From: Comamonadaceae bacterium
GTDB taxonomy: Bacteria > Pseudomonadota > Gammaproteobacteria > Burkholderiales > Burkholderiaceae_C
Assembly (NCBI GenBank): GCA_027488985.1
Contig: JAIYAR010000010.1
Location: 186,001 to 250,000 of the forward strand
Reading direction: 5' to 3'
Length of the DNA stretch: 64,000 nt
Shown here: in pieces, positions 3,262 to 58,738 of the stretch
Numbering within the stretch: the stretch's first letter is position 1
Layout of the letters: each line of letters starts with the position of its first letter
Translations under genes and position numbers: made by a program
The notes under the pieces: model-generated
What the model saw: only the letters and a program-made list of their open reading frames with translations
What the model was told of the DNA's origin: nothing
The model's database searches: none

Positions 3262-3310
3262 GGCCTCTATCGCCTGTTGAATATGCGCGAGCAGCTATCA
3301 AAAGAATAGC
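3262..3310 (-). repeat. Dispersed 48-base repeat, copy A (intergenic)
   Basis: Read on the minus strand it runs GCTAT, variable bases, TTGATAGCTGCT, C, GCGCA, variable bases, then GGCGATAGAGGCC. This is one of the least altered copies and it lies between a thioesterase gene and the AidB-like gene. It matches the intergenic copy at 58692-58738 and the copies inside genes. Confidence 0.8.
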
Positions 3311-3325
3311 GTTTGAGGAGACAGC

Positions 3326-5008
3326 ATGCACAGCGAGACCGACTTCCCGGCGACCCACACGGTGTTCAACCAGGCCGAGCCCTTGGCAGATACGAATCTG
3401 CTTGAGGGCAACCGCGCCTTGCAGAGCGCACTGACTTTTCATGCGCCGGGCATGGACACGTCCGCACTGCATTTCCTGGGCAGGCAAATGGGCAGCCGCG
3501 CCATGCAGACCCATGCGCGCTTGGCCAACACCCACCCACCGGTGCTCCACAGCCACGACCGGCTGGGGCGTCGGGTGGACCAGGTGGAATTCCACCCCAG
3601 CTACCACGCGCTAATGGATGCTGCCGCCCAAGCCGGCCTGCATGGCAGCCCCTGGGACCCGGCGGCGGGTGAGGGCGCCCACCTGCGGCGGGCGGCTGCA
3701 TTCATGGTGTTCACCGAAGCTGAGCCCTCCATCCTGTGCCCCATTTCCATGACCTACGCGGTGCTACCCGCACTGCGGGGCAACCCTGCCGTGTTTGAAG
3801 CCTGGGCACCCGGCCTGATGGCGCGGGCCTATGACTCTGGGTTCAAGCTCTACCGCCACAAACGCGGCCTGACCATGGGTATGGGCATGACCGAGAAGCA
3901 AGGCGGCTCGGACGTGCGGGCCAACACCACGCAAGCCATCCCCGATGGCGAAGATGCATGGGGCCAGCGCTTCAAGCTGCTGGGCCACAAGTGGTTTTTC
4001 TCGGCTCCCATGTGCGACGCTTTTCTGGTGCTGGCGCAAAGCCCGGCGGGCTTGTCCTGCTTTTTTGTGCCCCGCATCCTGCCGGACTTTGCGGATCTGC
4101 AGTCACCCGGCGCGGTAAATGCCATCCGCATCCAGCGTCTGAAAGACAAGCTGGGCAACCACGCCAATGCCAGCTCGGAAGTGGAGTTTCAACATGCCAC
4201 AGCCTGGCTGGTGGGTGTGGAGGGGCGCGGCGTGTCGCAGATTCTGGAAATGGGCACCATGACCCGGCTGGACTGTGCCTTGGGCACTACCGGTCTGATG
4301 CGGCAGGCGCTCAGCATCGCGCTGCACCACACCACGCAGCGCCGGGCCTTCGGCAAGGCCCTGATCGAGCAAGCGCTGATGCGCAATGTGCTGGCCGACC
4401 TTGCTATCGAATGCGAAGCGGCTTGCGCACTCTCCATGCGGCTCGCAAGCGCTTTTGACCATGCTTCTGACCCGCATGAACTGCTGATGGGCCGCCTGCT
4501 GACGCCGGTGGCAAAATACTGGATCTGTAAGCGCGGCGCTGCTTTTGCCCAAGAGGCCATGGAGTGCCTGGGCGGCAACGGCTATGTGGAGGAGGGCGGA
4601 GAAGGCACCATGGCCCGTATCTACCGCGAGATGCCGCTCAACTCCATCTGGGAAGGCGCCGGCAACATCATGGCGCTGGACCTGTTGCGCGCCCTGCGCA
4701 AGGGCGATACCGCTGCAGCCCTGGCCCGTGAACTTGCTCCCGCCCATGGCGCACACCCCGCGCTCGACCGGCTGGCAGCGTCCTTGCCCACGCGGGTGGA
4801 ACTCATGGCTACCGAGGTGGAAGCCCGCCGCCTCGCACAAGACGTGGCACTCGCGGTGCAAGCTGCGCTGCTGTACCAAACGGCTCCCACTGCGGTATTC
4901 GAGGCGTTTTGTGATTCCCGGCTGGGTGGCAACTGGGGCTACAGCTTCGGCACCCTGGGTGCTGCGGTGGACTTTGACGCCATCCTGCAGCGCGCCATGC
5001 CCTATTGA
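3326..5008 (+). CDS. AidB-like acyl-CoA dehydrogenase family protein
   Basis: 560-residue flavoprotein of the AidB branch of the acyl-CoA dehydrogenase family. The branch signature MTEKQGGSDVR lies near residue 190, and ICKRG, EAMECLGGNGY and NSIWEGAGN occur in the C-terminal half. E. coli AidB binds DNA and FAD and is induced by alkylation damage. Related proteins in beta-oxidation clusters act as isovaleryl-CoA-type dehydrogenases, and this context (acyl-CoA genes, no ada or alkA nearby) leaves both roles open. The ATG at 3326 has GAGGAG eight bases upstream. The C-terminal domain is full length. Confidence 0.88.
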   Translation: MHSETDFPATHTVFNQAEPLADTNLLEGNRALQSALTFHAPGMDTSALHFLGRQMGSRAMQTHARLANTHPPVLHSHDRLGRRVDQVEFHPSYHALMDAAAQAGLHGSPWDPAAGEGAHLRRAAAFMVFTEAEPSILCPISMTYAVLPALRGNPAVFEAWAPGLMARAYDSGFKLYRHKRGLTMGMGMTEKQGGSDVRANTTQAIPDGEDAWGQRFKLLGHKWFFSAPMCDAFLVLAQSPAGLSCFFVPRILPDFADLQSPGAVNAIRIQRLKDKLGNHANASSEVEFQHATAWLVGVEGRGVSQILEMGTMTRLDCALGTTGLMRQALSIALHHTTQRRAFGKALIEQALMRNVLADLAIECEAACALSMRLASAFDHASDPHELLMGRLLTPVAKYWICKRGAAFAQEAMECLGGNGYVEEGGEGTMARIYREMPLNSIWEGAGNIMALDLLRALRKGDTAAALARELAPAHGAHPALDRLAASLPTRVELMATEVEARRLAQDVALAVQAALLYQTAPTAVFEAFCDSRLGGNWGYSFGTLGAAVDFDAILQRAMPY

Positions 5009-5025
5009 TTTTTCTGGAGAAACCC

Positions 5026-5964
5026 ATGACAGACCTCATTCTTCACCACTACCCCACGTCACCGTTTTCCGAGAAAGTGCGCTTGGTGCTCGGCTACAAA
5101 CAGCTGGCTTGGAAGTCGGTCATCATTCCGGCCATCATGCCCAAACCCGATGTGGTGGCCCTGACTGGCGGCTACCGCAAGACACCGTTCTTGCAGATTG
5201 GCTCCGACGTGTATTGCGACAGCGCCCTGATCTGCGAAGTGCTGGAGCAGCTGCGGCCCACACCGACCCTCTACCCCGAAGACGACAAGGGCCTGAGCCG
5301 CATCGTGGCGCAATGGGCGGACAGCACTTTGTTCTGGGCCGCCATGGCCTACAACCTGCAGCCCAAAGGGGCGGCCAGCATGTTTGAAGGTGCGCCCCCC
5401 GAAGCGGCCAAGGCCTTCGGCGCCGACCGCGCCGCCATGTCCAGCGGCATGACGCGCCTGCGCCCTGGTGATGCAGCTGCCGCCTACAAGAGCTACCTGC
5501 GCCGCATCGCCAGCATGCTCGAAGGCCAGGACTTTTTGCTTGGCAGTGCCCCTTGTGTGGCTGACTTTGCCGCCTACCACCCGCTGTGGTTCACCGCCAA
5601 ACGGGTGCCGGTGATGGCCGACATCCTGAATGCTACGCCCTCGGTACAGGCCTGGATGGCACGCATGGCGGCCATCGGCCACGGCAGCTTAGAGAAACTG
5701 TCTGCTACAGAAGCCATAGCAACTTGCGCACAATCCGCGGGCGCTAAAGCCCCATTGGACACCTATTTCCAGAACGAGCACGGCATTCCTCTGGGTAGCG
5801 AAGTGACCATCGCCGCCGAGACTTTCGGCCAGGAAACCACTGCCGGCACCTTGGTCGCCGCCACCCGCACCCGCTTTACATTGAAGCGCGTGGACGAGCG
5901 CGCTGGCACTGTGCATGTGCACTTTCCGCGCATCGGCTATGTGCTCAAGACGGCCCAGGCATGA
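5026..5964 (+). CDS. Glutathione S-transferase family protein with C-terminal extension
   Basis: 312 residues. The N-terminal thioredoxin-like GST domain shows HHYPTSPFSEKVRL with the Ser-Pro-Phe active-site region, the cis-proline segment RKTPFLQ, and DSALICEVLEQ of the glutathione-binding motif. The all-alpha domain follows (GQDFLLGSAPCVADFAAY). About 70 residues follow the usual GST end (residues 240-312) and form a small beta-rich tail. The ATG at 5026 sits behind GGAGAAACCC. The substrate is unknown. A repeat-like sequence (5704-5752) falls at the junction of the two parts. The gene overlaps the next by four bases. Confidence 0.85.
   Translation: MTDLILHHYPTSPFSEKVRLVLGYKQLAWKSVIIPAIMPKPDVVALTGGYRKTPFLQIGSDVYCDSALICEVLEQLRPTPTLYPEDDKGLSRIVAQWADSTLFWAAMAYNLQPKGAASMFEGAPPEAAKAFGADRAAMSSGMTRLRPGDAAAAYKSYLRRIASMLEGQDFLLGSAPCVADFAAYHPLWFTAKRVPVMADILNATPSVQAWMARMAAIGHGSLEKLSATEAIATCAQSAGAKAPLDTYFQNEHGIPLGSEVTIAAETFGQETTAGTLVAATRTRFTLKRVDERAGTVHVHFPRIGYVLKTAQA
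5704..5752 (+). repeat. Dispersed repeat, copy B (inside the GST gene)
   Basis: GCTAC, variable bases, CATAGC, CTTGCGCA, variable bases, GGGCGCTAAAGCCC. The first base of the repeat is the first base of a codon, giving ATEAIATCAQSAGAKAP. The match is moderate. The encoded stretch may be largely native to the family, so this copy is less certain than C, D and E. Confidence 0.5.
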
Positions 5965-6524
5965 GTCAGGACGTCCAATGGCAGTGGCTCGCATTTAATG
6001 CACTGAGCCGCGATCAGTTGTACGAACTGCTGCGCCTGCGTAGCGAGGTGTTTGTGATCGAACAGAACTGCGTGTTCCAGGACATGGACAACCTCGACCA
6101 ACAAGCCATGCACCTTCTGGGAGTGAGGGTGGCTGTGGGTTCTGCGCAGGTCAAGGAGGAGCACGCGCAGCGGGCGGGGGACACGGAGCAGAGCCCGCTG
6201 CCGCCCTCACTCCCCGGCGGATCTGTTGGGCAAGCCAAGACAGAACTCATTGCTTACGTGCGCTGCTTCCCCGCCGGCGTGACTTTTGACGAGGCCAGCA
6301 TAGGCCGGGTGGTGACTAAGCCCAACGCCCGCGGCGGCGGTCTCGGCCACTTTCTGATGGTTGAGGCCGTCAAAGCGCTGGAAGGCGAGTGGGGAGCACA
6401 ACCGATTCGCATCGGTGCACAAGCCCACCTCAAGTCCTTTTACGAGCGACACGGCTTTGTGGACGTGGGCAAGCCTTATATCGAAGACGGCATTCCGCAC
6501 CTGGAAATGCTGCGCGGCGCCTGA
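5961..6524 (+). CDS. ElaA-like GNAT N-acetyltransferase with internal insert
   Basis: 187-residue GNAT protein resembling ElaA: LYELLRLRSEVFVIEQNC at the N-terminus, the acetyl-CoA loop region GRVVTKPNARGGGLGHFLM, and AHLKSFYERHGF near the end. ElaA proteins are usually about 150 residues. The surplus is a polar, Pro/Gln/Glu-rich insert (about residues 56-88) between two strands of the core. The start overlaps the GST stop (ATGA). The acceptor substrate is unknown. I see no frameshift, since both flanking parts of the fold read in one frame. Confidence 0.85.
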   Translation: MSQDVQWQWLAFNALSRDQLYELLRLRSEVFVIEQNCVFQDMDNLDQQAMHLLGVRVAVGSAQVKEEHAQRAGDTEQSPLPPSLPGGSVGQAKTELIAYVRCFPAGVTFDEASIGRVVTKPNARGGGLGHFLMVEAVKALEGEWGAQPIRIGAQAHLKSFYERHGFVDVGKPYIEDGIPHLEMLRGA

Positions 6525-6564
6525 AAAGTACCGTTTTCAAATACTTTTAACGAGGAGAACCCCT

Positions 6565-7473: not shown

Positions 7474-7546
7474 AGCGTGGCAGCTTGAGGTAGAGTAATC
7501 TCCAACGTAGAGGCATCATTTTGATGCGTCTAACTTGGAGCCATTG

Positions 7547-10509: not shown

Positions 10510-10510
10510 A

Positions 10511-14474: not shown

Positions 14475-16916
14475 ATGCAGAAAATCATCGCGCAAATTGC
14501 GCAAGAAATCCGTGTACGCCCCCAGCAGGTAGAGGCCGCCGTGGCCTTGTTGGATGGCGGCGCCACTGTGCCCTTCATCGCCCGATACCGCAAAGAAGTG
14601 ACGTACGGGCTGGACGACATCCAGCTGCGTGAGCTGGAAGCCCGCCTGAGCTACCTGCGTGAACTGCGCGACCGCAAGGAAGCGGTTGTCAAAAGCATTG
14701 AAGAACAAGGCAAGCTCACGCCCGCCTTGTTGGCCGCCATCGACGCGGCCGCGACCAAGCAGGAAGTGGAAGACATTTACCTGCCGTTCAAACCGAAGCG
14801 CCGCACCAAGGGCATGATCGCCCGCGAGGCCGGCATTGAGCCGCTGGCGGACAAGCTGTTTGCCAATCCGATGTTGGTGCCCATGGACGAGGCCCAGGCC
14901 TTTGTGCTCAAGGAAAAAACCGAAGCCGGCGACGACTTCACCACCGTGCTGGCGGTGCTGGACGGCGTGCGCGACATCTTGAGCGAGCGCTGGGCCGAAG
15001 ACCCGGTGCTGGTGCAAGACCTGCGCGAGTGGCTGTGGCAAGAGGGCCTGTTCCGCTCCAAACTGATGGACGGCAAGGACGAGAACCACGTCGACGTGTC
15101 CAAGTTCCGCGATTACTTTGACTACGATGAGCCCATTGGCCGCGTGCCCAGCCACCGTGCGCTGGCGGTGTTCCGGGGCCGCTCACTGGATATTCTGGAT
15201 GCCAAGCTGGTGTTGCCCGAGCCAGTTTCTACATCAAATGTGGCTGTAGCGCCCGCAGTATCTGCGCAAGCAGCTACGAATTCAGTAGCAAAACGGCCTG
15301 CAGCGGTGGTGTCTTTGGCGGAAGGTCGCTTGGCGCTCAAGCTGGGTTGGAGCCACCAGGGCCGCCCCGCCGATGACCTGATCCGCAAGTGCGTGGCTTG
15401 GACCTGGAAGGTCAAGCTCAGCCTGTCCACTGAGCGCGACCTGTTTGCCCGCTTGCGCGAAGACGCCGAGAAGGTGGCCATCAAGGTGTTTGCCGACAAC
15501 TTGCGCGACCTGTTGCTGGCAGCGCCCGCCGGCCCGCGCGTGGTGATGGGCATGGACCCCGGCATCCGGACCGGGGTGAAAGTGGCGGTGGTCGATGCAA
15601 CTGGCAAGCTGGTGGATACCGCGACTGTGTTCCCCCACGAACCGCGCAAAGACTGGGAAGGGTCACTCCACACCCTGGGCAAGCTGTGCGCCAAGCACAG
15701 CGTGAACCTTATTGCCATCGGCAACGGTACCGCCAGCCGCGAGACGGACAAACTGGCTGCAGATTTGATCAAGCTCCTGGCCAAAATGGCAGCGCAAGCC
15801 GGCGCGCCTGAAATCAAGGTCGACAAAGTGGTGGTGAGCGAAGCGGGCGCCTCGGTGTATTCCGCCAGTGAATACGCTTCTCAAGAGATGCCCGATGTGG
15901 ACGTGAGCCTGCGCGGTGCGGCCTCGATTGCCCGCCGCCTGCAAGACCCGCTGGCTGAACTGGTGAAGATCGACCCCAAGAGCATTGGCGTGGGCCAGTA
16001 CCAGCACGATGTGAACCAAAGCGAACTGGCCAAGACGCTGGACGCGGTGGTCGAAGACTGCGTGAATTCGGTGGGCGTGGACTTGAACACCGCCTCCGTA
16101 CCGCTGCTGTCTCGCGTATCCGGCCTGTCAGGCACCGTGGCCAAGGCGGTGGTGCGCTGGCGCGAGTCGAACGGGGCTTTTGGCAGCCGCCAGGATTTGA
16201 TGAAGGTGACCGGCTTGGGTGCCAAAACCTTTGAGCAGAGCGCAGGCTTTTTGCGCATCCGTGGCGGCAGCAACCCGCTGGACATGACGGGCGTGCACCC
16301 CGAGACCTACCTGGTGGTCGAAAAAATCATGGCGCAGACCGGCAAGCCGGTGGCCGAGATCATGGGCCGGGCCGACATGCTCAAAACGCTCAAGCCCGAG
16401 CTGTTTGCCAATGAAAAGTTTGGGGTGATCACCGTCAAAGACATCTTCACCGAGCTGGAAAAGCCCGGCCGCGACCCGCGCCCGGACTTCAAGGTGGCCC
16501 GCTTCAACGACGACGTGGAAGACATTGCCGACCTGAAGGAAGGCATGATTCTGGAAGGCACCGTGAGCAACGTGGCCCAGTTCGGAGCCTTTATTGACTT
16601 GGGCGTGCACCAGGACGGCTTGGTACATGTGAGCCAACTGGCGCACAAGTTTGTCAACGATGCGCGCGAGGTCGTCAAAACCGGCGACATCGTCAAAGTG
16701 CAGGTCGTGGAAGTGGATGTGGCTCGCAAGCGCATCGGCCTTACTATGAAAATAGGAGCAGCTCCCGCAGGTGCCAAGGGCGCTGGAGGCCAGAAAGCCG
16801 GTGATAACCGATACCAGGGCCCCGCCCGTGGCGAACGCCAGGTCGGCCGCTACCAGGACAGTGCACCGGCTGCCGGCAACGCCATGGCAGCGGCGTTTGC
16901 CAAGCTCAAGCGCTGA
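14475..16916 (+). CDS. tex: Tex family transcription accessory protein (S1 RNA-binding)
   Basis: 813 residues. The order is that of Tex: N-terminal helical domain (GGATVPFIARYRKEVT near residue 28), YqgF-like nuclease-fold domain (VVMGMDPGIRTGVKVAVVD), helix-hairpin-helix region (NTASVPLLSRVSGL, MKVTGLGAKTFEQ) and a C-terminal S1 domain (GMILEGTVSNVAQFGAFIDLG). Tex binds nucleic acids and acts in the cytoplasm around transcription and RNA. It is about 35 residues longer than usual, which two repeat-derived stretches can explain: about residues 251-272 and 757-772. The start has no clear Shine-Dalgarno sequence and is preceded by a terminator-like hairpin. Confidence 0.95.
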   Translation: MQKIIAQIAQEIRVRPQQVEAAVALLDGGATVPFIARYRKEVTYGLDDIQLRELEARLSYLRELRDRKEAVVKSIEEQGKLTPALLAAIDAAATKQEVEDIYLPFKPKRRTKGMIAREAGIEPLADKLFANPMLVPMDEAQAFVLKEKTEAGDDFTTVLAVLDGVRDILSERWAEDPVLVQDLREWLWQEGLFRSKLMDGKDENHVDVSKFRDYFDYDEPIGRVPSHRALAVFRGRSLDILDAKLVLPEPVSTSNVAVAPAVSAQAATNSVAKRPAAVVSLAEGRLALKLGWSHQGRPADDLIRKCVAWTWKVKLSLSTERDLFARLREDAEKVAIKVFADNLRDLLLAAPAGPRVVMGMDPGIRTGVKVAVVDATGKLVDTATVFPHEPRKDWEGSLHTLGKLCAKHSVNLIAIGNGTASRETDKLAADLIKLLAKMAAQAGAPEIKVDKVVVSEAGASVYSASEYASQEMPDVDVSLRGAASIARRLQDPLAELVKIDPKSIGVGQYQHDVNQSELAKTLDAVVEDCVNSVGVDLNTASVPLLSRVSGLSGTVAKAVVRWRESNGAFGSRQDLMKVTGLGAKTFEQSAGFLRIRGGSNPLDMTGVHPETYLVVEKIMAQTGKPVAEIMGRADMLKTLKPELFANEKFGVITVKDIFTELEKPGRDPRPDFKVARFNDDVEDIADLKEGMILEGTVSNVAQFGAFIDLGVHQDGLVHVSQLAHKFVNDAREVVKTGDIVKVQVVEVDVARKRIGLTMKIGAAPAGAKGAGGQKAGDNRYQGPARGERQVGRYQDSAPAAGNAMAAAFAKLKR
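15242..15289 (-). repeat. Dispersed repeat, copy C (inside tex, reversed)
   Basis: On the minus strand: GCTACTGAATTCGTAGCTGC, T, TGCGCA, variable bases, GCGGGCGCTACAGCC. It lies in tex between the conserved FRGR region and the segment before AWTWK. On the coding strand it reads TSNVAVAPAVSAQAATNSVA, an Ala/Val/Ser stretch with no counterpart that I recall in E. coli Tex. Confidence 0.8.
16743..16791 (+). repeat. Dispersed repeat, copy D (3' part of tex)
   Basis: ACTATGAAAATAGGAGCAGC, TCCCGCA, variable bases, AAGGGCGCTGGAGGCC. In frame it gives TMKIGAAPAGAKGAGG, forming the linker that follows the S1 domain. Confidence 0.75.
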
Positions 16917-17808: not shown

Positions 17809-18972
17809 ATGAAAGCACTTCGAATTTATGCGGGCCCGGTGGCCCGCGCGTCTTTGGCGGCCCAAGGGCTGCAACCCCAGCATGTCGCCACCATACCCGG
17901 CGCCGCCGGTGGCCCCAAGGGGCTGATACTGGGCGCGATGGACCGGTTTCTGTTCGGGGAGTGGCTGCCCCGCTCGGACCAAGCCGTGGACTTGGTCGGT
18001 GCGTCGATCGGTGCCTGGCGCATGGCAACCGCCTGTCTGGACAACCCGGTGGCTGCGTTTGAACGGCTGGAGCACGACTACATCCACCAGCATTACGAGC
18101 TGGCACCAGGCCAGAAGCGGGTGACTGCGGACCAGGTGAGCGAGACCTTCGGGCGTAACCTGCAGGCGTTTTATGGCGGGCGTATTCCCGAGGTGCTGAA
18201 CCACCCACGCTACCGGCTGCACATCGTGACTTCGCGCGGACGCCACTTGCTGCACACCGAGCACGGGTTGCGCACGCCACTGGGCTACTTGGGCGCCTTC
18301 CTGACCAACACGGTGCGCCGCAAAGCCATGGGCGCCTGGCTGGAGCGGGTGGTGTTTTCAAGCACGGTGGCAGGTCAGCGTGGGGCGGCGGCCTTGCCGT
18401 TTGCTACCGGTGACTACCGCACCCGCCAGGTGGCCTTAAGTGAAGGCAACTTCAACCCGGCGCTGCAAGCCAGTTGCTCGATTCCTTTTGTGTTGCGGGC
18501 CATCCAGGACATCCCGGGGGCTCCCAAAGGCGCCTATTGGGATGGCGGCATCACCGACTACCACTTGCACCTGAACTACCCGGGTGCCGGCCATCAGCGA
18601 AACGCTATCAATTCAGGAGCGGCTCGCGCTGATTCAACGGGCGCTAGCGGCCAAATGGATGCCCCAAGGCTGGTGCTGTATCCGCATTTCCAAAAGAGCG
18701 TGGTGCCTGGATGGCTGGACAAAAGCCTGAAGTGGAGGCACCGCAGCAGTCCGTTCCTGGACACCATGGTGCTGCTGGCCCCCAACCCGGATTGGGTGAA
18801 AACTTTACCGAACAGCAAACTACCGGACCGCACAGACTTTACGCACTACGGCAATGATCTGGATGCGCGGGTCAAGGCGTGGACTGGCGCCACCCGTGCC
18901 AGCCAGCAGATGGTGGACGAGTTCATCGCCTGGCTGGACAAGCCCGACATGAACCTGGTGCACCCCCTATGA
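17809..18972 (+). CDS. Patatin-like phospholipase
   Basis: 387 residues. Patatin-type acyl hydrolases use a Ser-Asp dyad: the nucleophile elbow GASIG lies near residue 67 and the Asp in DGGITDYH near residue 246. Between the Asp motif and LVLYPHFQ, where I would expect a short link, there is a stretch of about 30 residues containing repeat copy E (NAINSGAARADSTGASG). No signal peptide is seen, so it is probably cytoplasmic and acts on lipid acyl esters. The stop overlaps the start of the next esterase-like gene (ATGA). Confidence 0.87.
   Translation: MKALRIYAGPVARASLAAQGLQPQHVATIPGAAGGPKGLILGAMDRFLFGEWLPRSDQAVDLVGASIGAWRMATACLDNPVAAFERLEHDYIHQHYELAPGQKRVTADQVSETFGRNLQAFYGGRIPEVLNHPRYRLHIVTSRGRHLLHTEHGLRTPLGYLGAFLTNTVRRKAMGAWLERVVFSSTVAGQRGAAALPFATGDYRTRQVALSEGNFNPALQASCSIPFVLRAIQDIPGAPKGAYWDGGITDYHLHLNYPGAGHQRNAINSGAARADSTGASGQMDAPRLVLYPHFQKSVVPGWLDKSLKWRHRSSPFLDTMVLLAPNPDWVKTLPNSKLPDRTDFTHYGNDLDARVKAWTGATRASQQMVDEFIAWLDKPDMNLVHPL
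18604..18652 (+). repeat. Dispersed repeat, copy E (inside the patatin gene)
   Basis: GCTATCAATTCAGGAGCGGC, TCGCGC, variable bases, ACGGGCGCTAGCGGCC. It is close to the family consensus and in codon register with the host gene, giving AINSGAARADSTGASG in a surface-loop position. Confidence 0.85.
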
Positions 18973-23799: not shown

Positions 23800-24729
23800 T
23801 CAAATGTCTTCCAGCAGCGGATAAGGTAACGGTAGCAGCTGTAGCGCAGCTCCGCCAATGCTTAAAGGCGTATCTTTGGCAGAAAGCTGCAAAGACACAA
23901 TGGCAGTCCAGCCGCCCTCAGGGCTTGGTGCCGCTTGCACCACCTGACCTGCGGGCTGGTCCGGGTCTCCACCTGTAAGGACTTCCTCGCCCGGTGTCAT
24001 CTGCGCATCGCTGATCGCGATGAATGCCCTGCGTTTCAAGGTACCGCGGAACTGGCTGCGGGCTACCACCTCCTGCCCCGGATAGCAGCCTTTCTTGAAG
24101 CTCACACCACCCACTGATTCATAGTTCAGCATTTGGGGCACAAAGGCCTCAAACGCGGGCATGCTGACGGTAGCTACACCACTCAGCACCTCGCCCCATT
24201 GCCAGACGGCGAGCTCCATGGGAGTGCCTTGGGGCTGCGGATGCTGTGCATCTGCAATAAGCAATTGGCGGGGAACGTCACCAGCAGGATACAGATTCAC
24301 TACGGTTTCCGAGTCGAATTCATGTTTTGCCCAGACGGAGTGTGCGCCAGCAGCTACATTTTTCGTAGCGCTTCCGGCCAGTCCCCAAAGCGCCAAATCG
24401 TCACTGGCGTCTGTGAGTTTTGCCTTCGCCCGCATGACAAACATGGATAGCCGCTTCAGTGTGCCAGGCAAGAGGTCGCGACTACAGACCAACAGAACAT
24501 CGCCATTGCCCTGCTTGAAGCCGATGAAACTTGCCTGCATGCGCCCTTTGGCGGAGCAGAAGGCCGCGAGCCGTGCCTGGTCGGTACCCAGTAGCGCAAA
24601 GTCTTGTGTCAATTGGCCGTGAATGAATTTGGCGGCGTCTTCACCCTGGATACGGATCACGCCCCAATGGGTGAGTCGGGTGACGCCATGAGGCAAGGAA
24701 GGGGAGGGCAAAGTGGTCTGGCTGGTCAT
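23800..24729 (-). CDS. ygfZ: YgfZ/GcvT-domain folate-binding protein
   Basis: 309 residues. YgfZ-type proteins use folate and support Fe-S enzymes such as the tRNA methylthiolase MiaB. The signature KGCYPGQEVVARSQFRG lies near residue 230. DAAKFIHGQLTQD marks the N-terminal folate-binding fold. The start is ATG 24729; a start 27 bases earlier would overlap the divergent mltG gene. Repeat copy F sits in the middle of the protein (ATKNVAAGAHSVWA). Confidence 0.9.
   Translation of the reverse strand: MTSQTTLPSPSLPHGVTRLTHWGVIRIQGEDAAKFIHGQLTQDFALLGTDQARLAAFCSAKGRMQASFIGFKQGNGDVLLVCSRDLLPGTLKRLSMFVMRAKAKLTDASDDLALWGLAGSATKNVAAGAHSVWAKHEFDSETVVNLYPAGDVPRQLLIADAQHPQPQGTPMELAVWQWGEVLSGVATVSMPAFEAFVPQMLNYESVGGVSFKKGCYPGQEVVARSQFRGTLKRRAFIAISDAQMTPGEEVLTGGDPDQPAGQVVQAAPSPEGGWTAIVSLQLSAKDTPLSIGGAALQLLPLPYPLLEDI
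24329..24369 (-). repeat. Dispersed repeat, copy F (inside ygfZ)
   Basis: Minus strand: GCTACGAAAAATGTAGCTGC, TGGCGCA, variable bases, TGGGC. The left half matches well and the right half is decayed. It is in codon register with ygfZ. Confidence 0.6.
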
Positions 24730-24739
24730 AGGCTGAATT

Positions 24740-25756
24740 ATGATTCCCCGTTTCATCCAGACAGAGAGTAGGGCTGTGCGCTTTTTGATTGCGGTTGTTC
24801 TGGCAGTAGCTGCCCTGTTTGCCGCAGGATTTGTATGGGTGAACGCTCCATTGGCGCAGACGGCTGTCAGCGTCGATTTGAATATTGAGCCCGGGAGCAG
24901 CGCACGGGAGATTGCCCGCCAAGTGGCTGCATCTGGGGTCGAGGTGCAGCCGGATCTGCTGTACTGGTGGTTCCGGGTATCTGGAAAAGCCCGAAATATC
25001 CGAGCCGGTAGCTACGAGTTGAGTCAGGGAACCACGCCTGCGACGCTCCTTCAAAAGCTGGTCCAAGGTGACGAAGCCTTGCGGTCAGTAACGCTGGTGG
25101 AAGGATGGACCTTCCGCCAGGCGCGACAGGCATTGGCCAAGGCAGAGGGCCTGCGTCAGGACAGCAAAACCATGTCTGACGAGTCGCTGATGGAGATACT
25201 GGACCGGAGTGGGCAACACCCCGAGGGCCGCTTTTTCCCGGATACCTATACCTACTCCAAAGGCAGCAGTGATCTGGCAATACTCCGCCGTGCCATGCGA
25301 TCAATGGACCAACATCTGGAGGGTGTCTGGAAAATACGCCAGCCCGGGCTGCCCCTGCAAACCCCTGAGCAAGTCCTAGTGTTGGCCAGCATTATCGAAA
25401 AAGAGACCGGTCGTGCGTCTGATCAAGCACTCATTTCCGCTGTGTTCCACAACCGCCTGCGTCTGGGGATGCGTTTGCAAACAGACCCCACGGTGATTTA
25501 TGGCCTGGGAGAAAGCTTCGATGGCAATTTGCGACGCGCCGATCTCCAGGCAGATACTCCCTACAACACCTACACCCGCAACGGCTTGCCACCAACGCCC
25601 ATTTCCCTGCCCGGGCGTGCAGCATTGATTGCTGCCGTTAGCCCCGAAGCATCCAAGGCGATTTACTTTGTCGCTCGAGGCGATGGGACCAGCCACTTCA
25701 GCACCACCCTGGACGAGCACAATAGGGCGGTCGACAAATACCAAAGAGGGCGATGA
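24740..25756 (+). CDS. mltG: Endolytic murein transglycosylase MltG
   Basis: 338 residues. MltG cuts nascent peptidoglycan strands and limits glycan length at the inner membrane. An N-terminal TM helix (about residues 13-34, [20 protein letters not shown]) anchors it. LysM-like and YceG domains follow, with the catalytic Glu in [10 protein letters not shown] near residue 218 and [14 protein letters not shown] near the end. It is divergent from ygfZ with 10 bases between the starts, and its stop overlaps tmk (ATGA), the common mltG-tmk-holB order. Confidence 0.94.
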
Positions 25757-41822: not shown

Positions 41823-42935
41823 TCAGGCAAGCGTACGCAAGGGGTGAGAGTTCGCGGGCCATGGGCTGTCAAAGAAAGGGGCCACCATGGCGGTGGTCAC
41901 ATCCTCAATCCGTGCCGGGTTCCACTGTGGCTGGTGGTCCTTGTCCACCGCAAGTGCACGGATGCCCTCCACCGTTTCACTGCGCGCTCCAGCGCGATCC
42001 AAATGGCGGGTGACGAAGCAGTGCCGCACCATGTCACGCTCCATGCGCAAGTCCTCGGTCAGGCTCATGGTGCGCGCTCTGCGCACCTGCTCCAGCACCA
42101 CATGCAACATCAGGGGCGAACGCTTGCGCAAAGTCGCTGCAGTATGTTGTGCCCACTCAGAACTGTCGGCCTCCAGAGCACCCACGATAGATTGCACATC
42201 CGCCCGAGAAAAATAGGCATCAATTTGATCTCTAGCGCCCATGGAATCTGCGTGAGCAGCTATAGAAAATGTAGCAATCCAAGGGTCGAGTGAACCTGCA
42301 GACTCCCAATCCACGCCAGCCAAGGCATCCCAAGCTTCCTGGAGTCGACCTGCGTCCAGCATGTGGTCCGCCAATTGCACCGCAATAGCAGCGTCTGCAC
42401 CAATAACCTCTCCGGTTAGTGCCAACCATTCGCCGGTGTTACCCGGACAACGGCTCAAGAAGTAGCCCCCGCCTACATCCGGAAATAGGCCGATGTTGGT
42501 TTCGGGCATGGCCATCTTGGTTCGCGAGGTCACCAAGCGGTGTGACGCCCCTTGGCTGATACCCATGCCCCCGCCCATCACGATGCCGTCCATGAATGCC
42601 AAGTAAGGCTTGGGGTAGGTGTGGATGAGGTGGTTCAGCACGTACTCCTCGGTGAAGAAGTCCTCCAGCGCCGGGTCGCCTGACAGTGCCGCAGCGTGGA
42701 AAAAGCGGATATCCCCGCCTGCACAAAATCCGCCGAAGGGGCCTTCTTTGTTGCTGCCGCGGATGGCCACTGCATGGATACTGGAATCATCCTTCCACGC
42801 CAAAAGAATCGCTGTGAGCGAGCGCACCATACCCAAGCTCAAGGCATTCAATGCTTTAGGGCGGTTCAGGGTGATGTAACCCACCCCACCGGTCACCTCG
42901 GTAACGACATCCAGACCCCAGTCTCCGTGTTTCAT
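41823..42935 (-). CDS. Enoyl-CoA hydratase/isomerase family protein, 3-hydroxyisobutyryl-CoA hydrolase type
   Basis: 370 residues. Crotonase core: oxyanion-hole segments GFCAGGDIRFFH and MGGGMGISQGASHRLVT, and PETNIGLFPDVGGGYFLSR, which together with the length match the valine-pathway hydrolase group rather than plain enoyl-CoA hydratases (about 260). The start is ATG 42935, overlapping the upstream stop (ATGA) with GGAGAC upstream. Repeat copy G lies mid-gene, between the core and the C-terminal helices. Confidence 0.88.
   Translation of the reverse strand: MKHGDWGLDVVTEVTGGVGYITLNRPKALNALSLGMVRSLTAILLAWKDDSSIHAVAIRGSNKEGPFGGFCAGGDIRFFHAAALSGDPALEDFFTEEYVLNHLIHTYPKPYLAFMDGIVMGGGMGISQGASHRLVTSRTKMAMPETNIGLFPDVGGGYFLSRCPGNTGEWLALTGEVIGADAAIAVQLADHMLDAGRLQEAWDALAGVDWESAGSLDPWIATFSIAAHADSMGARDQIDAYFSRADVQSIVGALEADSSEWAQHTAATLRKRSPLMLHVVLEQVRRARTMSLTEDLRMERDMVRHCFVTRHLDRAGARSETVEGIRALAVDKDHQPQWNPARIEDVTTAMVAPFFDSPWPANSHPLRTLA
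42227..42275 (-). repeat. Dispersed repeat, copy G (inside the hydratase/hydrolase gene)
   Basis: Minus strand: GCTACATTTTCTATAGCTGC, TCACGCA, variable bases, ATGGGCGCTAGAG. In codon register it gives ATFSIAAHADSMGARD. Confidence 0.75.
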
Positions 42936-43804
42936 TTGCGTTGTCTCCATCCAATCAGTTCATTCACCAGCAGCGCACCGATGACCAAGGCACCGCCGGA
43001 CACAACGGCGCTCCCTGGCGCCTCGTTCGCACCCAGCCACGCCAGCAGAATGCCGAAAATAACCTCCAGCAATTGGAGCAAGGATATCTCGGGCGCTTTC
43101 AGCACCTGGGCCACCCGCACGCTCAAGACACAGGGCACGGCGAGCTGAAAGACGCCCAGAAATCCCAACAGGGCCACGTCATGTGCAGTTGCTTGCAAGG
43201 GCAGCGCCAGGGGCAAGGTAACGATACAAGAAATCACGCCTCCCACCCACACGGCGGGCATCAGGTCGATGTCATGCCCTTGGTCATGTGCGTGCTGCGT
43301 CACCGTCCAGTTGGTCGCGCCCGCAATGGGCACACACAAGGCGACCAAGGTTCCCCACAGCGTGATGCTGTCTACTTGCGAGGCATACATATACACAATG
43401 CCCGCGCCTGCCACCAGCACCGCTATCCAGGTGCGCGCGGGTATCCGGTGCCCGATGAAGATGCGCGCCATCAGGGCAGTCAGCAGCGGCCCCATGGACA
43501 TGGTGACCAACACATTGCCCACCGAGGTCAGGGTGAGTGCCACCATGAAGGCTGTGAACATCACGCTCCAGCACACGCCGGAAAGCCAGAACGCTGGCGT
43601 AGCACTGCGCAGTTTGGCGAACACGCCCCTCCCACTGACCACCGGCAGGATCACCAGCAAGCTGATCACTGTGAAAAACGAGCGCCAGAAGGTCACTTCG
43701 AAGCTTCGCGCAGACTCCAAATGGCGCGTCACCACGCCGGCGGTGGACCACATCAGGGCGACCAGCACCATCAGCAAAACAGCGCGGTTGTGGGTGAGCT
43801 TCAT
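42932..43804 (-). CDS. EamA/DMT family transporter
   Basis: 290 residues with about ten TM helices in two EamA repeats, starting AVLLMVLVALMWSTAG and again WIAVLVAGAGIVYMYAS/GTLVALCVPIAGATNW. Inner-membrane exporter of metabolites; substrate unknown. The start is ATG 43804, behind AGGAAACTGC. It is coupled to the following hydratase/hydrolase gene. Confidence 0.9.
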   Translation of the reverse strand: MKLTHNRAVLLMVLVALMWSTAGVVTRHLESARSFEVTFWRSFFTVISLLVILPVVSGRGVFAKLRSATPAFWLSGVCWSVMFTAFMVALTLTSVGNVLVTMSMGPLLTALMARIFIGHRIPARTWIAVLVAGAGIVYMYASQVDSITLWGTLVALCVPIAGATNWTVTQHAHDQGHDIDLMPAVWVGGVISCIVTLPLALPLQATAHDVALLGFLGVFQLAVPCVLSVRVAQVLKAPEISLLQLLEVIFGILLAWLGANEAPGSAVVSGGALVIGALLVNELIGWRQRK

Positions 43805-45777: not shown

Positions 45778-46779
45778 TTACGCCCCGAGGGCCAAGGTTT
45801 CGTTACTCTGTTTCAAACTCTGTTCCAGGGCCTGCTGCTGGCCCAAGGTTTCGCTGATCTCCAGCGGACTCAGCAAACGCACCGGAATCAACTCCCCGGC
45901 GTTCACATGTGCCGTGCCCAAAAGGGCTTTCGGCATCGTGGCGTACACCGCCACTTGCTCAGCATCCGCCCACGCCCCGCGCCTGCGCATGCCACTCAAA
46001 AATCGTGCCGCATTCTCACTGTCCAATGTGACAGCCACATGCTGCGGTAGCAAAGCATCTACCGGTAAGAGACACGCCAGACGCTGCTCTTCCGTCATGG
46101 CCTCCAGGGCCTCCAGACTCACACACTGGCTGGTATCAAACCCACCCGTGCGGATCCGGCGCAATGCGCTCAAATGCGCACCGCAACCCAAGGCCTCACC
46201 AATGTCCTCACCCAGGGTTCGGATGTAGGTTCCCTTGCTGCACTCCACTACCAATTTGATAGCTGGTTGCGCAATATCCATGGGCGCTGGCAGCTGTTTC
46301 AATGCATAAATCACTACGTGGCGGGGCTCGCGTTCCACCTCAATCCCGGCTCTTGCGTACTCGTACAACGCCTTGCCGTCCTTCTTCAAGGCACTGTGCA
46401 TGGGCGGCACCTGGGCAATGGGCCCGGTGAAGCGCTGCAACACGGTATCCAATTTCACTTGCGAAAAATCTACCGGTCGCTCACTCAATACATCGCCCTC
46501 CACATCGGCCGTGCTGGTTTTAATGCCCAGCCGCACTGTCGTTTCGTAGGCTTTGTCCGCATCCAGATGCATCTGGCTGAATTTTGTCGCCGCACCAAAA
46601 CACAAGGGCAGCACGCCTGTCGCCAAAGGATCCAGCGTTCCGGTGTGTCCTGCTTTTTCAGCCCGCAACAACCATTTGGCCTTCTGCAATGCCTGATTAC
46701 TGGACAGGCCTATCGGCTTGTCCAGCAACAGCACCCCATGCACAGGGCGCCTTGCAACCCGTGCACGTGGCGCGTTCAT
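45778..46779 (-). CDS. truB: tRNA pseudouridine(55) synthase TruB
   Basis: 333 residues. It makes pseudouridine 55 in the T-loop of tRNAs. The catalytic Asp is in [19 protein letters not shown], and [15 protein letters not shown] marks the conserved C-terminal half. A short loop before CSKGTYIRT carries repeat copy H. The start is ATG 46779, five bases after the rbfA stop, with GAGGG upstream. Confidence 0.96.
46247..46294 (+). repeat. Dispersed repeat, copy H (inside truB, reversed)
   Basis: ACTACCAATTTGATAGCTGG, TTGCGCA, variable bases, ATGGGCGCTGGCAGC. Opposite in direction to truB. On the coding strand it gives [16 protein letters not shown], a slightly longer loop than in E. coli TruB. 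Confidence 0.7.
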
Positions 46780-46783
46780 GTGT

Positions 46784-47152
46784 TCAGCCCTCTTTGGCGC
46801 GCGATGACACCGCGCGGGCAATCAAGGCATTCATGTCAGCCGCACGTTCTGTGGTCTGGTCAAAAATGAAATGCAATGTCGGCACCGTGTGGATATGCAA
46901 ACGCTTGAACAGACCGGCGCGCAAAAAGCCCGCAGCCTGGTTCAGGCCTTCGGCCGTCTCCACCGGATCGCCGACCAGCAAGCTGAAAAAGACCTTGGCG
47001 TGGGCATAGTCGGGCGTGACTTCCACGCCCTGGATAGTGACCATACCCACCCGCGGATCCTTGAGCTCGCGCGCGATCAGCTCGGCCAGATCCCGTTGGA
47101 TCTGGTCGGCCACCTGAAAGCTGCGATTGGGTGTAGCTGACTTTTTGCGCAC
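46784..47152 (-). CDS. rbfA: Ribosome-binding factor A
   Basis: 122 residues. It binds the 30S subunit for 16S 5'-end maturation and cold growth. The KH-like fold shows [28 protein letters not shown]-type segments, and [15 protein letters not shown] is typical. It lies between infB and truB as in most bacteria. Confidence 0.95.
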
Positions 47153-52407: not shown

Positions 52408-54012
52408 TTAGGCACTGGCTGCCAGAAGTTTTGCGGTGTAAGGGTGAGCAGGAGCCTCCAAAACGGCGTCCACATTACCGGATTCCACAATTTCGCCGCC
52501 CTGCATCACCAGAACCCGGTGCGCCATCGCCCTGATTACCGCCACATCATGGGTGATCAGCAGATAGGCCAACCCCCGCTCCCTTTGGAGAGACTGCAGC
52601 AAGCGAAGCACCTGCAGGGCCATGGTGACGTCCAAGGCGCTTGTGGGCTCGTCCAGCACGATGACTGAAGGCTCCAAAACCAAAGCTCGCGCAATCGCCA
52701 AGCGCTGGCGCTGGCCGCCGGAGAACTGATGCGGGTAGCGCTGCAGGACCGCCGGAAACTGCTGCTCCCCCATGCCGACGACCTCCAGCACTTGTGATAC
52801 CCGCTCACGCCGGGATTCCACGGAAAGGCCGGGCATATGCACATCCAAACCCTCGCCTACCAACTCCTCCACGGTCATCCGCGGAGACAGGGAGGAAAAC
52901 GGATCCTGGAACACCACTTGCACTTGTTTGCGCAAGGCCACATCGCGGGCGGCCTTGCCGGACCAGGGTGCGCCCCCTACCTGGACGGTGCCTTCAAACG
53001 CGGTCAAACCCAAGGTCGCCAGCGCCAAGGATGACTTGCCGGACCCGGACTCACCCACAATGCCCAGCGTCTCGCCGCGGTGCAACAGAAAGTTTGCTGA
53101 GCGCACTGCGAAAAACAAACCGCTGGAGAACCATCCCCGGAAGCCCGGCTTGGGAATCGGGTAAGTGACATTTACAGCTTTGGCATCCAGCAATAGCGGC
53201 GCATCAGATGCCACCGAAGGAACATCACGAACCGGCAAGCTGTTCAACAGCTGGCGGGTGTAGGCGTGCTGAGGCTTTGAAAAAGCCTCCGCCACCGTGC
53301 CCTGCTCCACAATTTCGCCTTTTTCCATCACAGCCACGCGATCCGCAAACTTGCGGACCAGATGCAAGTCATGGGTGATGAGTAACACGGCCATGCCCTT
53401 ACGTCGTTGCAAGTCGGTGAGCAAATCCAGAATCTGCTGCCGCACACTCACGTCCAGCGCTGTAGTGGGCTCATCCGCCAGCAGCAATTTGGGGGCGCAG
53501 GCCAGAGCCATGGCGATCATGGCGCGCTGGCGTTGGCCCCCTGAGAGCTGGTGTGGATAGGCGTTCGCGCGTCGCACTGGATCGTCAATGCCGGTTTCTG
53601 CTATCAATTCAATAGCTGCCCGCGCAGATTCCTTGGGCGCCAGACCCTGCTTCTCTTCTAAAACTTCAGCAATCTGGCTGCCGATGGTGAATACCGGGTT
53701 CAGCGCCGTCATGGGCTCCTGAAACACCATGGCGATGTCCTGCCCGCGTATGCCACGCAGCTGCCGCTCCGGCAAGGCCAATAAATCGACGGAGCCTTTG
53801 CCGGACGCAAAGTCCGCCCGCCCCGTGACGCTGGCACCTTGTGTCAAACCTAGCAGGCTCAGAGCGGTGATGGTTTTGCCGGAGCCGGACTCTCCCACGA
53901 GCGCCAACTTTTCTCCGGGTTGGATATCGAAGTGGATTCCACGAACCACTTCCCGACCATCGAATGCCACCTGCAGTCCTTCCACTCTTAACAAGGCAGT
54001 TGGCTTCCTCAT
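52408..54012 (-). CDS. yejF: YejF-type double ATPase of a peptide ABC importer
   Basis: 534 residues with two ABC domains in one chain. Each has a Walker A (GESGSGKT and GESGSGKS), an ABC signature (QLSGGQRQR and QFSGGQRQR) and a Walker B ([12 protein letters not shown] and [12 protein letters not shown]). It drives uptake through the permeases encoded just upstream, with a four-base overlap. Repeat copy I falls between the first Q loop and the first signature ([16 protein letters not shown]). Peptides or microcin-like compounds are the usual cargo. Confidence 0.92.
53600..53647 (+). repeat. Dispersed repeat, copy I (inside yejF, reversed)
   Basis: GCTATCAATTCAATAGCTGC, CCGCGCA, variable bases, TTGGGCGCC. 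Opposite in direction to yejF, in the same register as copies C and H. The encoded helix is about the length expected of the family, so it may have replaced rather than added residues. Confidence 0.6.
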
Positions 54013-56055: not shown

Positions 56056-57851
56056 GGCTTGGCCCACCAGGTGTCAATGGCCCAGCCCTCGCCCTGAGCA
56101 TAGGGCGGCATCTGCGCAGGTTTTTCCAGGCGCCATGCGTTGTACGCAATGCGGTGCGTGGCGGCCGACCATTGCGGCACCAGCACATGGCTATGGGCAA
56201 TCAGGCGGTCCAGCGCCCGACAGGCGGGCAGCAAGGCGGCCTTGGACTTGGCTCCCGTCATGTGCTGAATCAGTGCATCTACCGCCGGGCTCTTCATCCC
56301 ACTGAAATTGCCGGAGTCCTCCTGGTCTGCCGCTTTGCTGCCGAACAAGTCCATAAACTCCTGTCCGGGGTTCTGGGTGCCGGCATAGGCGATGGAGGTG
56401 ATTTCGAAATCGAACTTCTGTAGTCGTTGCTGGTACAGCGCAAAGTCCACCGGGCGGAATTTGAGCGTGACGCCAATTTTCTCCAAATTACGCGCCCATG
56501 GGGTTACTACCCGCGCGCCGGATTCATTGCTGTCCAGGTACTCCAGCTCAAACGCCTGGCCTTTGGCGTTGCGCAAGGCGCCGTCGCGGTAAGTCCAGCC
56601 GGCGTCTTTCAACAAGGCTTGGGCCTTGCGCAAATTGTTACGCAGAGAGTCTTCGCCATCGGTGCGCGGTGGAATTGCTATGACTCCGAATGCAGCCTCC
56701 GGCACTTTGCCGCGCCATGGATTCAGCAAGCTCAGTTCTTGTTCCGGTGGCAAACCCGTGGCCTGACAGTCGGTGTTTCCGAACAGGCCTTGCACGCGCT
56801 GGTAGGCACCATAAAACATCTGGCGATTCATCCACTCGTAGTCCAGCGCCAGCCCCAGGGCTTGGCGCACCCGCACATCCTGCAGCAAAGGCTTGCGGCT
56901 ATTGAGCACATAGCTCTGGAAACCCGTGGGCAAGCGGTGTTTGAACTCGGTCTTGACCAATTCGCCGCTTTCAAACTTGCGCCCGTTGACGCGGCGCGCC
57001 CAATCCCCCGCAGAGAAAAAGCGCATCAGGTCGAACTCACCGGCCTTCAGGGCCTCCAAGCGCGCCGTGCTGTCTTTGTAGATCTTGACGGTGATGCGGT
57101 CAAAGTTGGCCGTGCCACGGCGCACGTTCAGATCACGCGCCCAGTACTGCGGGTCACGCACATAGGTAATGTCTTTGCCGAAGTTCACCGGGCCCACTTT
57201 GTAGGGCCCACTACCGATGGGGATGTCCATCACGATCTGGTCAAAGGGTTTGAGCTTGCCGCCCTCTTCGCCCCAGCGATGGCTGAACACCGGCAACCCA
57301 CCCACGGTCAGCGGCAGGTCGCGGTTGGGCTTGGCAAAGCGGTAGCGCACGGTACGTTCATCCAGCACATCCACACCCAACACGTCTTCCAGCATGCTCC
57401 GAAAGCCAGGGGACGCCAGCGGGCCTTTAAGCATGTCAAAGCTGTGTTTCACGTCGCGCGCAAGGACTGGATCACCATTGTGAAAACGCGCCTCCGGCCG
57501 CAATACAAAGGTAGCGCTCAAACCGTCCGCGGGCACGCTGATATCTTTGGCCAGAAGCCCGTAGCCCGCTGCCGTCTCATCCAGTGCACCGGCAAGCAGG
57601 CTGTCAAACATCAGGCTGCTCAGGTAGGCAGGCGCAGAGCCTTTGACCGTGAACGGGTTGTACTTGTCGAAGGTGGAGACCCGCAAGTTGCTGACCAGCC
57701 GCAACTCCCCGCCCTTGGGTGCGGCCGGATTGACATAACTGAAGTGGGCAAAGCCCGGCGGGTATTGCAGGTCGCCCCAAAGCGCATAGCCATGCGCAGC
57801 CCACACGCTGCCCGCCATGAAACTCCCCAGTAATGCCACCCATTTCCGCAT
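56052..57851 (-). CDS. yejA: YejA-type periplasmic peptide-binding protein
   Basis: 599 residues with a signal peptide ([18 protein letters not shown]) from ATG 57851. Family-5 binding-protein fold: [23 protein letters not shown], then [18 protein letters not shown] and [25 protein letters not shown]. It delivers oligopeptides to the YejBEF complex. It is the first gene of the operon and is divergent from fabI, with 42 bases between starts. Confidence 0.92.
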
Positions 57852-57893
57852 GAGACAATTCTGCACCAGACCACGCATTTTTATGAGGACGAT

Positions 57894-58679
57894 ATGGGCT
57901 TTTTAGCAGGCAAGAAGTTGTTGATCACAGGGGTGTTGTCGAACCGCTCCATCGCCTACGGCATTGCAAAAGCGTGCAAAGAACAAGGCGCGGAATTGGC
58001 TTTCAGTTACGTGGGTGAGCGCTTCAAGGAACGCATCACCGAGTTCGCGGCCGACTTCGACTCCAAGCTGGTCTTTGACTGCGATGTCGGCAACGATGAG
58101 CAGATCGACCAGTTGTTTAAAGACCTGTCTGCCCACTGGCCTACCTTTGACGGTTTCGTCCACAGCATCGGCTTTGCGCCCCGTGAAGCGATTGCAGGCA
58201 ACTTCCTGGACGGCCTGACCCGCGAGAACTTCAAAATCGCCCACGACATCAGCGCTTACAGCTTCCCGGCGATGGCCAAGGCGGCCCTGCCCTACCTGAG
58301 CCCCAAAGCGGCTTTGCTAACCCTGTCGTACCTGGGCGCTGAGCGCATCATCCCCAACTACAACACCATGGGCTTGGCCAAGGCGTCGCTGGAAGCCAGC
58401 GTGCGCTATCTGGCCGAAGCCGTGGGCCCCAAGGGCATTCGAGTGAACGGTATCAGCGCAGGCCCGATCAAGACACTGGCTGCCAGCGGTATCAAAGACT
58501 TTGGCAAGTTGCTCAACATGGTGGCCAGCGCATCCCCCATTCGTCGTAACGTGACGACAGAAGACGTGGGCAACGTGGCAGCCTTTCTGCTGAGCGACCT
58601 GGCGGGTGGCGTGACTGCAGAAATCACCTATGTGGACGGCGGCTACAGCCAGACCATGGGCGTAACCACCGAGGTTTAA
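57894..58679 (+). CDS. fabI: Enoyl-ACP reductase FabI
   Basis: 261 residues. It does the last step of each fatty-acid elongation round (NADH-dependent). [26 protein letters not shown] at the N-terminus is the FabI form of the Rossmann motif. The catalytic Tyr and Lys are in [23 protein letters not shown] (Tyr-x6-Lys, with the earlier Tyr in SYLG). ATGAGGACGAT precedes the ATG. It is the usual triclosan target. Confidence 0.96.
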
Positions 58680-58691
58680 GCATCCAATAAG

Positions 58692-58738
58692 CATCCTGCG
58701 CTCATGGAATATGCGCGGGTAGCTATTAAAAAGAGAGC
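58692..58738 (-). repeat. Dispersed repeat, copy J (intergenic, after fabI)
   Basis: Minus strand: GCTCTCTTTTTAATAGCTAC, CCGCGCA, variable bases, ATGAGCGCAGG. Its end overlaps the left arm of the fabI terminator. Confidence 0.7.

Follow-up and report, generated by a model that had tools for sequence, protein, structure and literature searches.

The repeat family and its place in the window

The stretch of DNA analysed here, called the window, comprises 64,000 nucleotides of a Comamonadaceae bacterium (assembly GCA_027488985.1, contig JAIYAR010000010.1, positions 186,001 to 250,000) and carries ten copies of a short repeat, which is the subject of this work. A sequence-only reading had described these copies as one family with a shared pattern of about 48 bases, lying mostly inside genes and always in the open register, and had likened them to the palindromic elements of Rickettsia. 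A 61-column profile was built from 46 seed copies, 30 from loci of the same genome and 16 from relatives. Nine of the ten window copies score at least 13 bits (Table 1), the best of them (seed L008) being itself part of the profile. The tenth, at 16743 in the tail of tex, is degenerate, its orthologues in genomes G001, G007 and G020 scoring 14.9–15.6 bits. The best score in 1,222,632 bases of backwards-read sequence was 11.1 bits. The ten stretches thus form a single repeat family. Eight of them lie in genes named by Pfam, five running with their gene and three against it, and two are intergenic, exactly as first described.

Table 1. Copies of the repeat in the window, with their host genes or neighbours, profile scores and length differences found in relatives of the same genus (low-copy, few core matches).
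Copy	Coordinates	Strand	Host gene or neighbours	Score (bits)	Length at the site in relatives
Intergenic	3253..3310	-	5' of AidB-like acyl-CoA dehydrogenase gene 3326-5008	53.4 (profile seed)	Equal in G007, G034, G001; no low-copy orthologue
GST-family gene, sense	5703..5760	+	Gene 5005-5964; Pfam GST_N/GST_C	26.3	Equal in repeat-free G014, the sole low-copy orthologue
tex middle, antisense	15232..15290	-	tex 14475-16916	46.2	15-54 nt shorter in eight low-copy relatives
tex tail, degenerate, sense	16744..16792	+	tex	5.8	-9 nt in four low-copy relatives (orthologue-based)
Patatin-like gene, sense	18604..18661	+	Gene 17809-18972; Pfam Patatin match slightly below cut-off	18.6	-48 to -69 nt in five low-copy relatives; -33 nt in high-copy G029
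YgfZ-like (GCV_T) gene, sense	24329..24369	-	Gene 23800-24756; Pfam	16.6	0, -9, -9 nt in three low-copy relatives
Enoyl-CoA hydratase family (ECH_2) gene, sense	42218..42276	-	Gene 41823-42950; Pfam	40.7	0, -6, +12 nt in three low-copy relatives
truB, antisense	46247..46303	+	truB 45778-46821	41.3	See text
YejF-like ABC ATPase gene, antisense	53599..53657	+	Gene 52408-54012	31.7	Equal in low-copy G018, G032, G004
Intergenic	58681..58738	-	Between SDR gene 57894-58679 and gene at 58768	27.3	Variants in relatives; -41 nt in G013

Anatomy and abundance of the element

The 48-base pattern is real, but the element is longer, about 60 bp, and reads GCTAY, an A/T tract, TAGCTGCTNGCGCA, ten free bases, GCGCTAGAGGCC and a second A/T tract. 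The profile of 76 copies from the genome holds 54 bits of information over its 61 positions. On either side of the core lies an A/T tract, at positions 8–12 and 52–55 respectively; the two are about four helical turns apart, and their spelling is interchangeable between AAAA-, TTTT- and AATT-type. The TpA step is avoided. It occurs at positions 9/10 in none of the 76 copies, where single positions predict 10.1 (AA 32, TT 24, AT 16), and at positions 53/54 in one copy, where 14.8 are predicted (TT 48, AA 21, AT 3). Counted anywhere within the tract, TpA is rare rather than absent (five copies on the left, three on the right). Scarcity of TpA combined with free choice of the tract letters fits the demand of a protein that senses the shape of the groove, not the copying of a template.

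The core ATAGCTGCTNGCGCA, allowing at most one mismatch, has 110 + 110 matches in the 3.56 Mb of the genome while the reversed pattern has 1 + 0. The expectation that many more copies would be found genome-wide is thereby borne out well above background, and the over-representation known from uptake sequences is present (220 core matches against 1 in the control). In a 464-kb stretch of this contig that includes the window there are 54 full copies, eight of which were profile seeds; this density, about one per 8.6 kb, extrapolates to some 400 copies per genome. Their spacing is not distinguishable from random in this sample (coefficient of variation 0.92 versus 0.97 ± 0.12).

Identity between pairs of the 76 copies reaches 0.90 for one pair located 1.7 kb apart and otherwise at most 0.82, the maxima in simulated sets being 0.77 ± 0.02. 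The copies behave nearly like independent draws from the profile. The spread of pair identities, with a standard deviation of 0.069 against 0.056 in the simulations, indicates that some shared history or coding structure is left in them. Identical copies in G180 and G075 are located inside larger duplications. G180 also has an array (locus L336, 2348-15682) whose units are about 325 bp long and mostly 82–93% alike, several of them carrying the motif; it resembles a cassette or intergenic repeat array.

The hairpin implied by the word palindromic did not hold: the proposed stem pairs match about as often as in shuffled columns (pair 5/15 in 28 of the 54 copies, 32.7 after shuffling; the other pairs within about one standard deviation), so that stem covariation is not seen. 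The imperfect dyad of the motif is no better than that of permuted columns, 32 of 500 permutations equalling it. At gathering thresholds, Rfam finds a single tRNA across the window and no other known RNA. Genome G000 has two inverted pairs of the motif core, about 24 bp apart (C2:132810-132848 and C14:14873-14911). They recall the inverted pairs of uptake signal sequences (USS) that form terminators in Haemophilus (PMC5217627).

Register within coding sequences

Genes in the 464-kb sample were called with a simple home-made caller based on codon usage, which probably misses short genes. According to these calls, 31 of the 54 copies are genic, 13 of them in sense and 18 in antisense orientation, and the other 23 (43%) are intergenic, about 12% of the sample being non-coding. 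The common register claimed for the window copies holds, that of the Tex-tail copy by arithmetic, and the wider sample extends it far beyond the one in three expected by chance: 12 of the 13 sense copies begin at codon position 1, the sole exception being the copy at 177299 of the first sample block, and all 18 antisense copies share one register.

Stop codons had been proposed as the reason for this bias, and they do account for part of it. Read in the sense direction, the three frames are free of stops in 47, 10 and 23 of the 54 copies; in the antisense direction the numbers are 36, 49 and 0. Nevertheless, in 13 of the 18 antisense in-gene copies another frame is also free of stops and yet not used (0.5^13 = 1.2e-4), and avoidance of stops therefore explains the register in part only.

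In-place rewriting or insertion

Rickettsia palindromic elements are insertions, able to fold, that add a peptide to the proteins encoded by the unrelated genes in which they are found in frame. The present repeat is like them in having in-frame copies in unrelated genes. Whether it also adds length was assessed by a gap test, a flank-anchored comparison with relatives of the same genus and with further low-copy stretches. Fifteen in-gene sites have a low-copy orthologue, namely all eight of the window and seven of the sample blocks. At seven, one or more repeat-free relatives match the length exactly (GST, YgfZ-like, hydratase, TruB, YejF, and 149550 and 177299 of the first block), and three differ by 9–12 nt (Tex tail, -9; 32681 and 35703 of the second block, +12 and -12). 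Three are compatible with insertion: Tex middle (-15 to -54), patatin (-48 to -69) and the gene start at 33580 (-39). Two are unreadable, their low-copy flank matches lying in the C3 sample (56735, gap +935; 206633, gap -345). Protein comparison gives a similar picture. Alignments with the solved DppD and Rv1281c continue across the YejF stretch, interrupted by gaps of two and one residues, and those with the solved chains of 1k8w, which we take to be E. coli TruB, continue across the TruB stretch with a gap of four. P. aeruginosa Tex (PA5201) does not have the residues of the Tex-middle stretch.

These lengths point to substitution rather than insertion at most, not all, in-gene sites. Repeat-free homologues carrying the residues at every site had been named from the outset as evidence against added peptides; the comparison speaks against insertion exactly at seven of the fifteen sites and within 9–12 nt at three more, but not at every one. 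Insertion of the Rickettsia type is rejected by length at most readable sites and retained for the patatin copy, which does look like a full-length addition; added peptide is possible also at Tex middle and at the gene-start site. The present repeat is further unlike Rickettsia elements in that stem covariation is not seen. An in-frame repeat is not necessarily an inserted peptide.

The same data bear on the wider idea that the repeat is a mobile palindromic element, of the Rickettsia type or of the type of repetitive extragenic palindromes (REP) and miniature inverted-repeat transposable elements, inserted long ago and later subject to gene conversion between copies. The patatin copy, missing in five low-copy relatives, agrees with it, and insertion is conceivable also for Tex middle and for site 33580, where one relative is 39 nt shorter. 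The seven sites without any added length do not, nor does the little recent copying: the only pair above 0.82 identity consists of near neighbours, and the identical copies of G180 and G075 belong to larger duplications. The absence of stem covariation also tells against a palindromic element.

A transposase related to those that mobilise REP sequences (RAYT) would be the natural partner of such an element. The Y1_Tnp domain (PF01797), searched in the genome and 36 relatives, is found in 35 of these 37 genomes regardless of copy number and is not found in G031, which is 91% complete and has 81 core matches. Y1_Tnp thus does not track copy number, yet four copies of at least 13 bits occur in three of the 30 Y1 transposase loci, about 2.1 being expected, one of them in G023 (14 core matches in total), and a good or weak copy (3.3–34.8 bits) stands directly 3' of the Y1 gene at five loci (L060, L066, L077, L085, L089). 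On balance we judge a mobile element distinctly improbable as the explanation of the family, while some copies could have a mobile origin. In this genus a conserved stretch containing GTCCC and TCTGACCCC blocks is often found 3' of the Y1 (RAYT-like) genes (e.g. L060, L083, L085, L086, L089); it may be the true repeat partner of these transposases.

The TruB site across genera

The site in truB could be followed furthest. Sixteen genomes from eight other genera yielded a TruB, and its neighbourhood was obtained for 15 of them; together with the genomes of the same genus, this allowed the site to be mapped in 31 genomes of nine genera, the present one included. The length difference is zero in all 31, again as expected of rewriting in place and not of added length. 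Scored with a profile of the genome's own copies minus the TruB copy of the window, the site reaches 20–54 bits in 17 of the 18 genomes with at least 50 core matches and falls to -34 to -63 bits in 11 of the 13 genomes with fewer. One position of a conserved enzyme thus carries the motif in eight genera; most genomes without the system have ordinary codons there.

Lineage dialects

Copies at nine orthologous sites were compared between six lineages of the genus, 33 of 64 assigned copies entering the test; close relatives of the present genome were left out, as were G003 and G020. Copies at different sites of the same genome are more alike than under permuted labels, both over the whole length (0.614 versus 0.570) and in the core (0.697 versus 0.629), and none of 2000 label permutations reaches the within-genome identity in either case. 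The shared spellings are readily visible: G009 has CTCCCGCACTATCC at all five of its sites, G026 has TGTGCA or TGTACA at six of six, and G095 has TTGAGCA in eight of ten copies. The TruB copy fits best the profile of its own genome in eight of ten genomes, nine of the ten profiles being built from 3–9 copies. The copies evolve in concert as lineage dialects, with the uniformity within a genome that uptake sequences display.

A search for a different dialect in samples of six low-copy genomes (40–118 kb) gave no comparable motif among the top seven 9-mers. The test is a weak one, the 9-mer list recovering the known motif in G095 (ranks 1–2) and G000 (ranks 5 and 7) and not in G034.

Rewriting in place and concerted dialects would be accounted for jointly if single strands derived from an element, with a transposase- or retron-like source, annealed at partly matching sites and overwrote them by a conversion resembling recombineering. 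A template should, however, homogenise the variable positions, and the A/T tracts are interchangeable instead; moreover, the copies come close to independent draws from the profile, although their spread is wider than simulated. We consider this conversion highly improbable.

Distribution among genomes and replicons

Of 37 genomes examined in the genus, 14 have at least 50 core matches and 19 have eight or fewer. Recurrence of the motif in other Comamonadaceae, which had been suggested beforehand, is confirmed: by a hand count from the table, 43 of 299 genomes of the family reach at least 50 core matches, with a maximum of 442, and several genera also hold near-empty species. Other dialects are undercounted here because the core pattern is the Rhodoferax spelling. 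Among the matches listed, hosts belong to Rhodoferax, Polaromonas, Acidovorax, Curvibacter, Simplicispira, Variovorax, Xenophilus, Ottowia and Giesbergeria. Core matches are at background in 24 genomes of other families of the order.

In a midpoint-rooted tree of Tex and UvrA, the low-copy clade G006/G014/G018/G032 sits between high-copy clades that share sites. This suggests that the motif was either lost in that clade or gained repeatedly at positions predisposed to it, the midpoint root leaving the direction unproven.

The motif is also unevenly spread between replicons. The 305-kb second replicon of G001 has one copy where 32.4 are expected (P 2.8e-13), while 160 kb of its chromosome have 17, nine in the 80 kb that match the window and eight in 80 kb elsewhere. 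A blast of a plasmid collection matched 13 of 72,556 records and is too insensitive for a count. Seventeen stretches of viral contigs were left out of account, having no assigned host.

Near-absence from this replicon would be understandable if the motif were bound by a chromosomal (cytoplasmic) protein, such as one involved in shaping or partitioning the nucleoid, with selection keeping hundreds of sites and the dialects reflecting co-evolution with the protein. A/T tracts in a fixed geometry fit DNA that is bound and bent, the copies are enriched between genes, and the TruB site is kept in one place across genera. It would be odd, though, for a chromosome-organising system to have essentially no copies in species of the same genus, and neither the random spacing nor a dyad that does not rise above permuted columns is what such a protein would lead one to expect. 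We hold this explanation to be rather unlikely.

Relation to known repeats and uptake sequences

Strong preferences for uptake sequences have been described in two families (PMC7811141), the Pasteurellaceae with their USS and the Neisseriaceae with their DNA uptake sequences (DUS). The USS resemble the present motif in several respects. A gap test of the same kind showed that the USS of Haemophilus are not insertions (PMC1626085), two lineage types exist, and the flanks are AT-rich, rigid AT tracts mattering in uptake (PMC1626085, PMC7811141). The USS are mostly coding (65%; PMC1626085), as are 31 of the 54 copies here, and they are under-represented in newly acquired segments (PMC7811141), to be compared with the sparseness here on one replicon that is assumed to be acquired. 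They differ in having a 9-bp core and 1,465–2,206 copies (PMC7811141), against about 60 bp and about 400 copies by extrapolation for the motif, and in that uptake bias has been measured for USS but is a prediction for the motif. The DUS share with it family-wide dialects that follow lineages and a restriction of the usable frames by stop codons (PMC3630211), and their distribution marks mobile DNA (PMC7371117). They are shorter, about 10 bp, with up to thousands of copies and a receptor, ComP.

Fragments of the motif may have been seen before. A search for spaced motifs published in 2017 (PMC5217627) lists among its unexplained pairs ATAGCT(N)22CAAAAG with 125 copies in Polaromonas naphthalenivorans and GCTTAT(N)5AAGCG with 114 copies in Acidovorax ebreus, Rhodoferax ferrireducens being the genome with most motif pairs. 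In the loci fetched here, one of one match to the first pattern and two of five to the second lie inside motif copies, a thin basis on which these pairs may be parts of the present family. In the available text they are given as mostly intergenic, without dialects, in-gene analysis or mechanism. The available text of PMC3164672 and PMC2755013 does not mention the motif, and a literature search, whose coverage mostly left out subscription journals, found no paper that treats it as a family or assigns it a function.

The beta-proteobacterial repeat elements (BRE; PMC3110155) are likewise found in Comamonadaceae, with some copies within coding sequences. In Bordetella they are 75–91 bp long, 69% GC and often in tandem, features by which they would differ from the motif. 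A second repeat, unrelated to the motif, does fit the published description. It is about 82 bp long with 66% GC, forms a near-perfect hairpin (-44 kcal/mol as RNA) and has 18 blast matches in the fetched loci, including the window (6127-6206), L107 (10715-10796), L104 (4856-4937) and L143 (9109-9187). It lies inside tex with the frame open, near residue 450 in G026 and G029 and near residue 265 in G022. This 82-bp repeat, unlike the main motif, does look like an inserted palindromic element.

A possible DNA uptake signal

The motif shares several hallmarks with USS and DUS: it mostly originates in place, is spelled in dialects, has AT tracts, seems to avoid foreign DNA and is patchily lost. 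For this reason an uptake-like reading is put forward. The repeat would be a double-stranded DNA signal of about 60 bp that arises by substitution in place, is spelled in a lineage dialect and decays when it is no longer maintained; its driver is most likely biased import of DNA, a view to which we give about even chances. A surface DNA receptor of natural competence would prefer fragments that bear the signal, and recombination of the imported fragments with the chromosome would spread those alleles that are nearer to it, a molecular drive. The signal would in this way be written into the chromosome mainly via in-place substitutions. A shift in the preference of the receptor would shift all sites along, and lineages that cease to maintain the signal would lose their copies by decay. 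We infer from the comparisons above that the motif is read by a protein, that this reader is part of the competence machinery and that the copies are maintained by drive and not by a cellular function. The gene comEC is present in the genome.

Several observations weigh against import as the driver. ComEC is found in 59 of 60 genomes, high- and low-copy alike, and the one without a match, G026, has 74 core matches; GspH-type pilins are found in all 40 genomes searched, in both copy-number groups. These searches, of 60 and 40 genomes respectively, single out no receptor. Compared with DUS and USS, the motif is long and sparse, with 54 bits spread across 61 positions and about one copy per 8.6 kb. 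Three of the fifteen in-gene sites are compatible with insertion and two cannot be read. Over the whole length, copies at the same site in different genomes are slightly more alike (0.648) than copies at different sites within a genome (0.614), the higher identity being what coding constraint predicts, and the TruB copy ranks its own genome's profile second in G015 and sixth in G075. The high-copy genome G188 has no motif in truB (0.8 bits), while the low-copy genomes G222 (33.6 bits; 17 core matches) and G343 (40.9 bits; 6 core matches) keep a strong TruB copy; these two may use a dialect missed by the core pattern or be losing the system. Finally, the second replicon of G001, a single case whose newly acquired status is assumed, may simply be recent.

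With these reservations we propose, tentatively and with slightly more doubt than belief, that the Comamonadaceae could be a third family, beside Pasteurellaceae and Neisseriaceae, with self-recognition in DNA uptake, by means of a dialect signal of about 60 bp that is found in at least eight genera, has been repeatedly lost and overrides protein sequence, as in TruB. If true, this would be a third independent case of uptake signals, in environmental bacteria, with several dialects and with high- and low-copy species within genera, and molecular drive, receptor co-evolution and loss of the system would become testable by comparison. Even if the motif is read by a chromosomal protein, it would represent an unusual force acting at the level of DNA that dictates the amino acids at one site of a conserved enzyme across genera.

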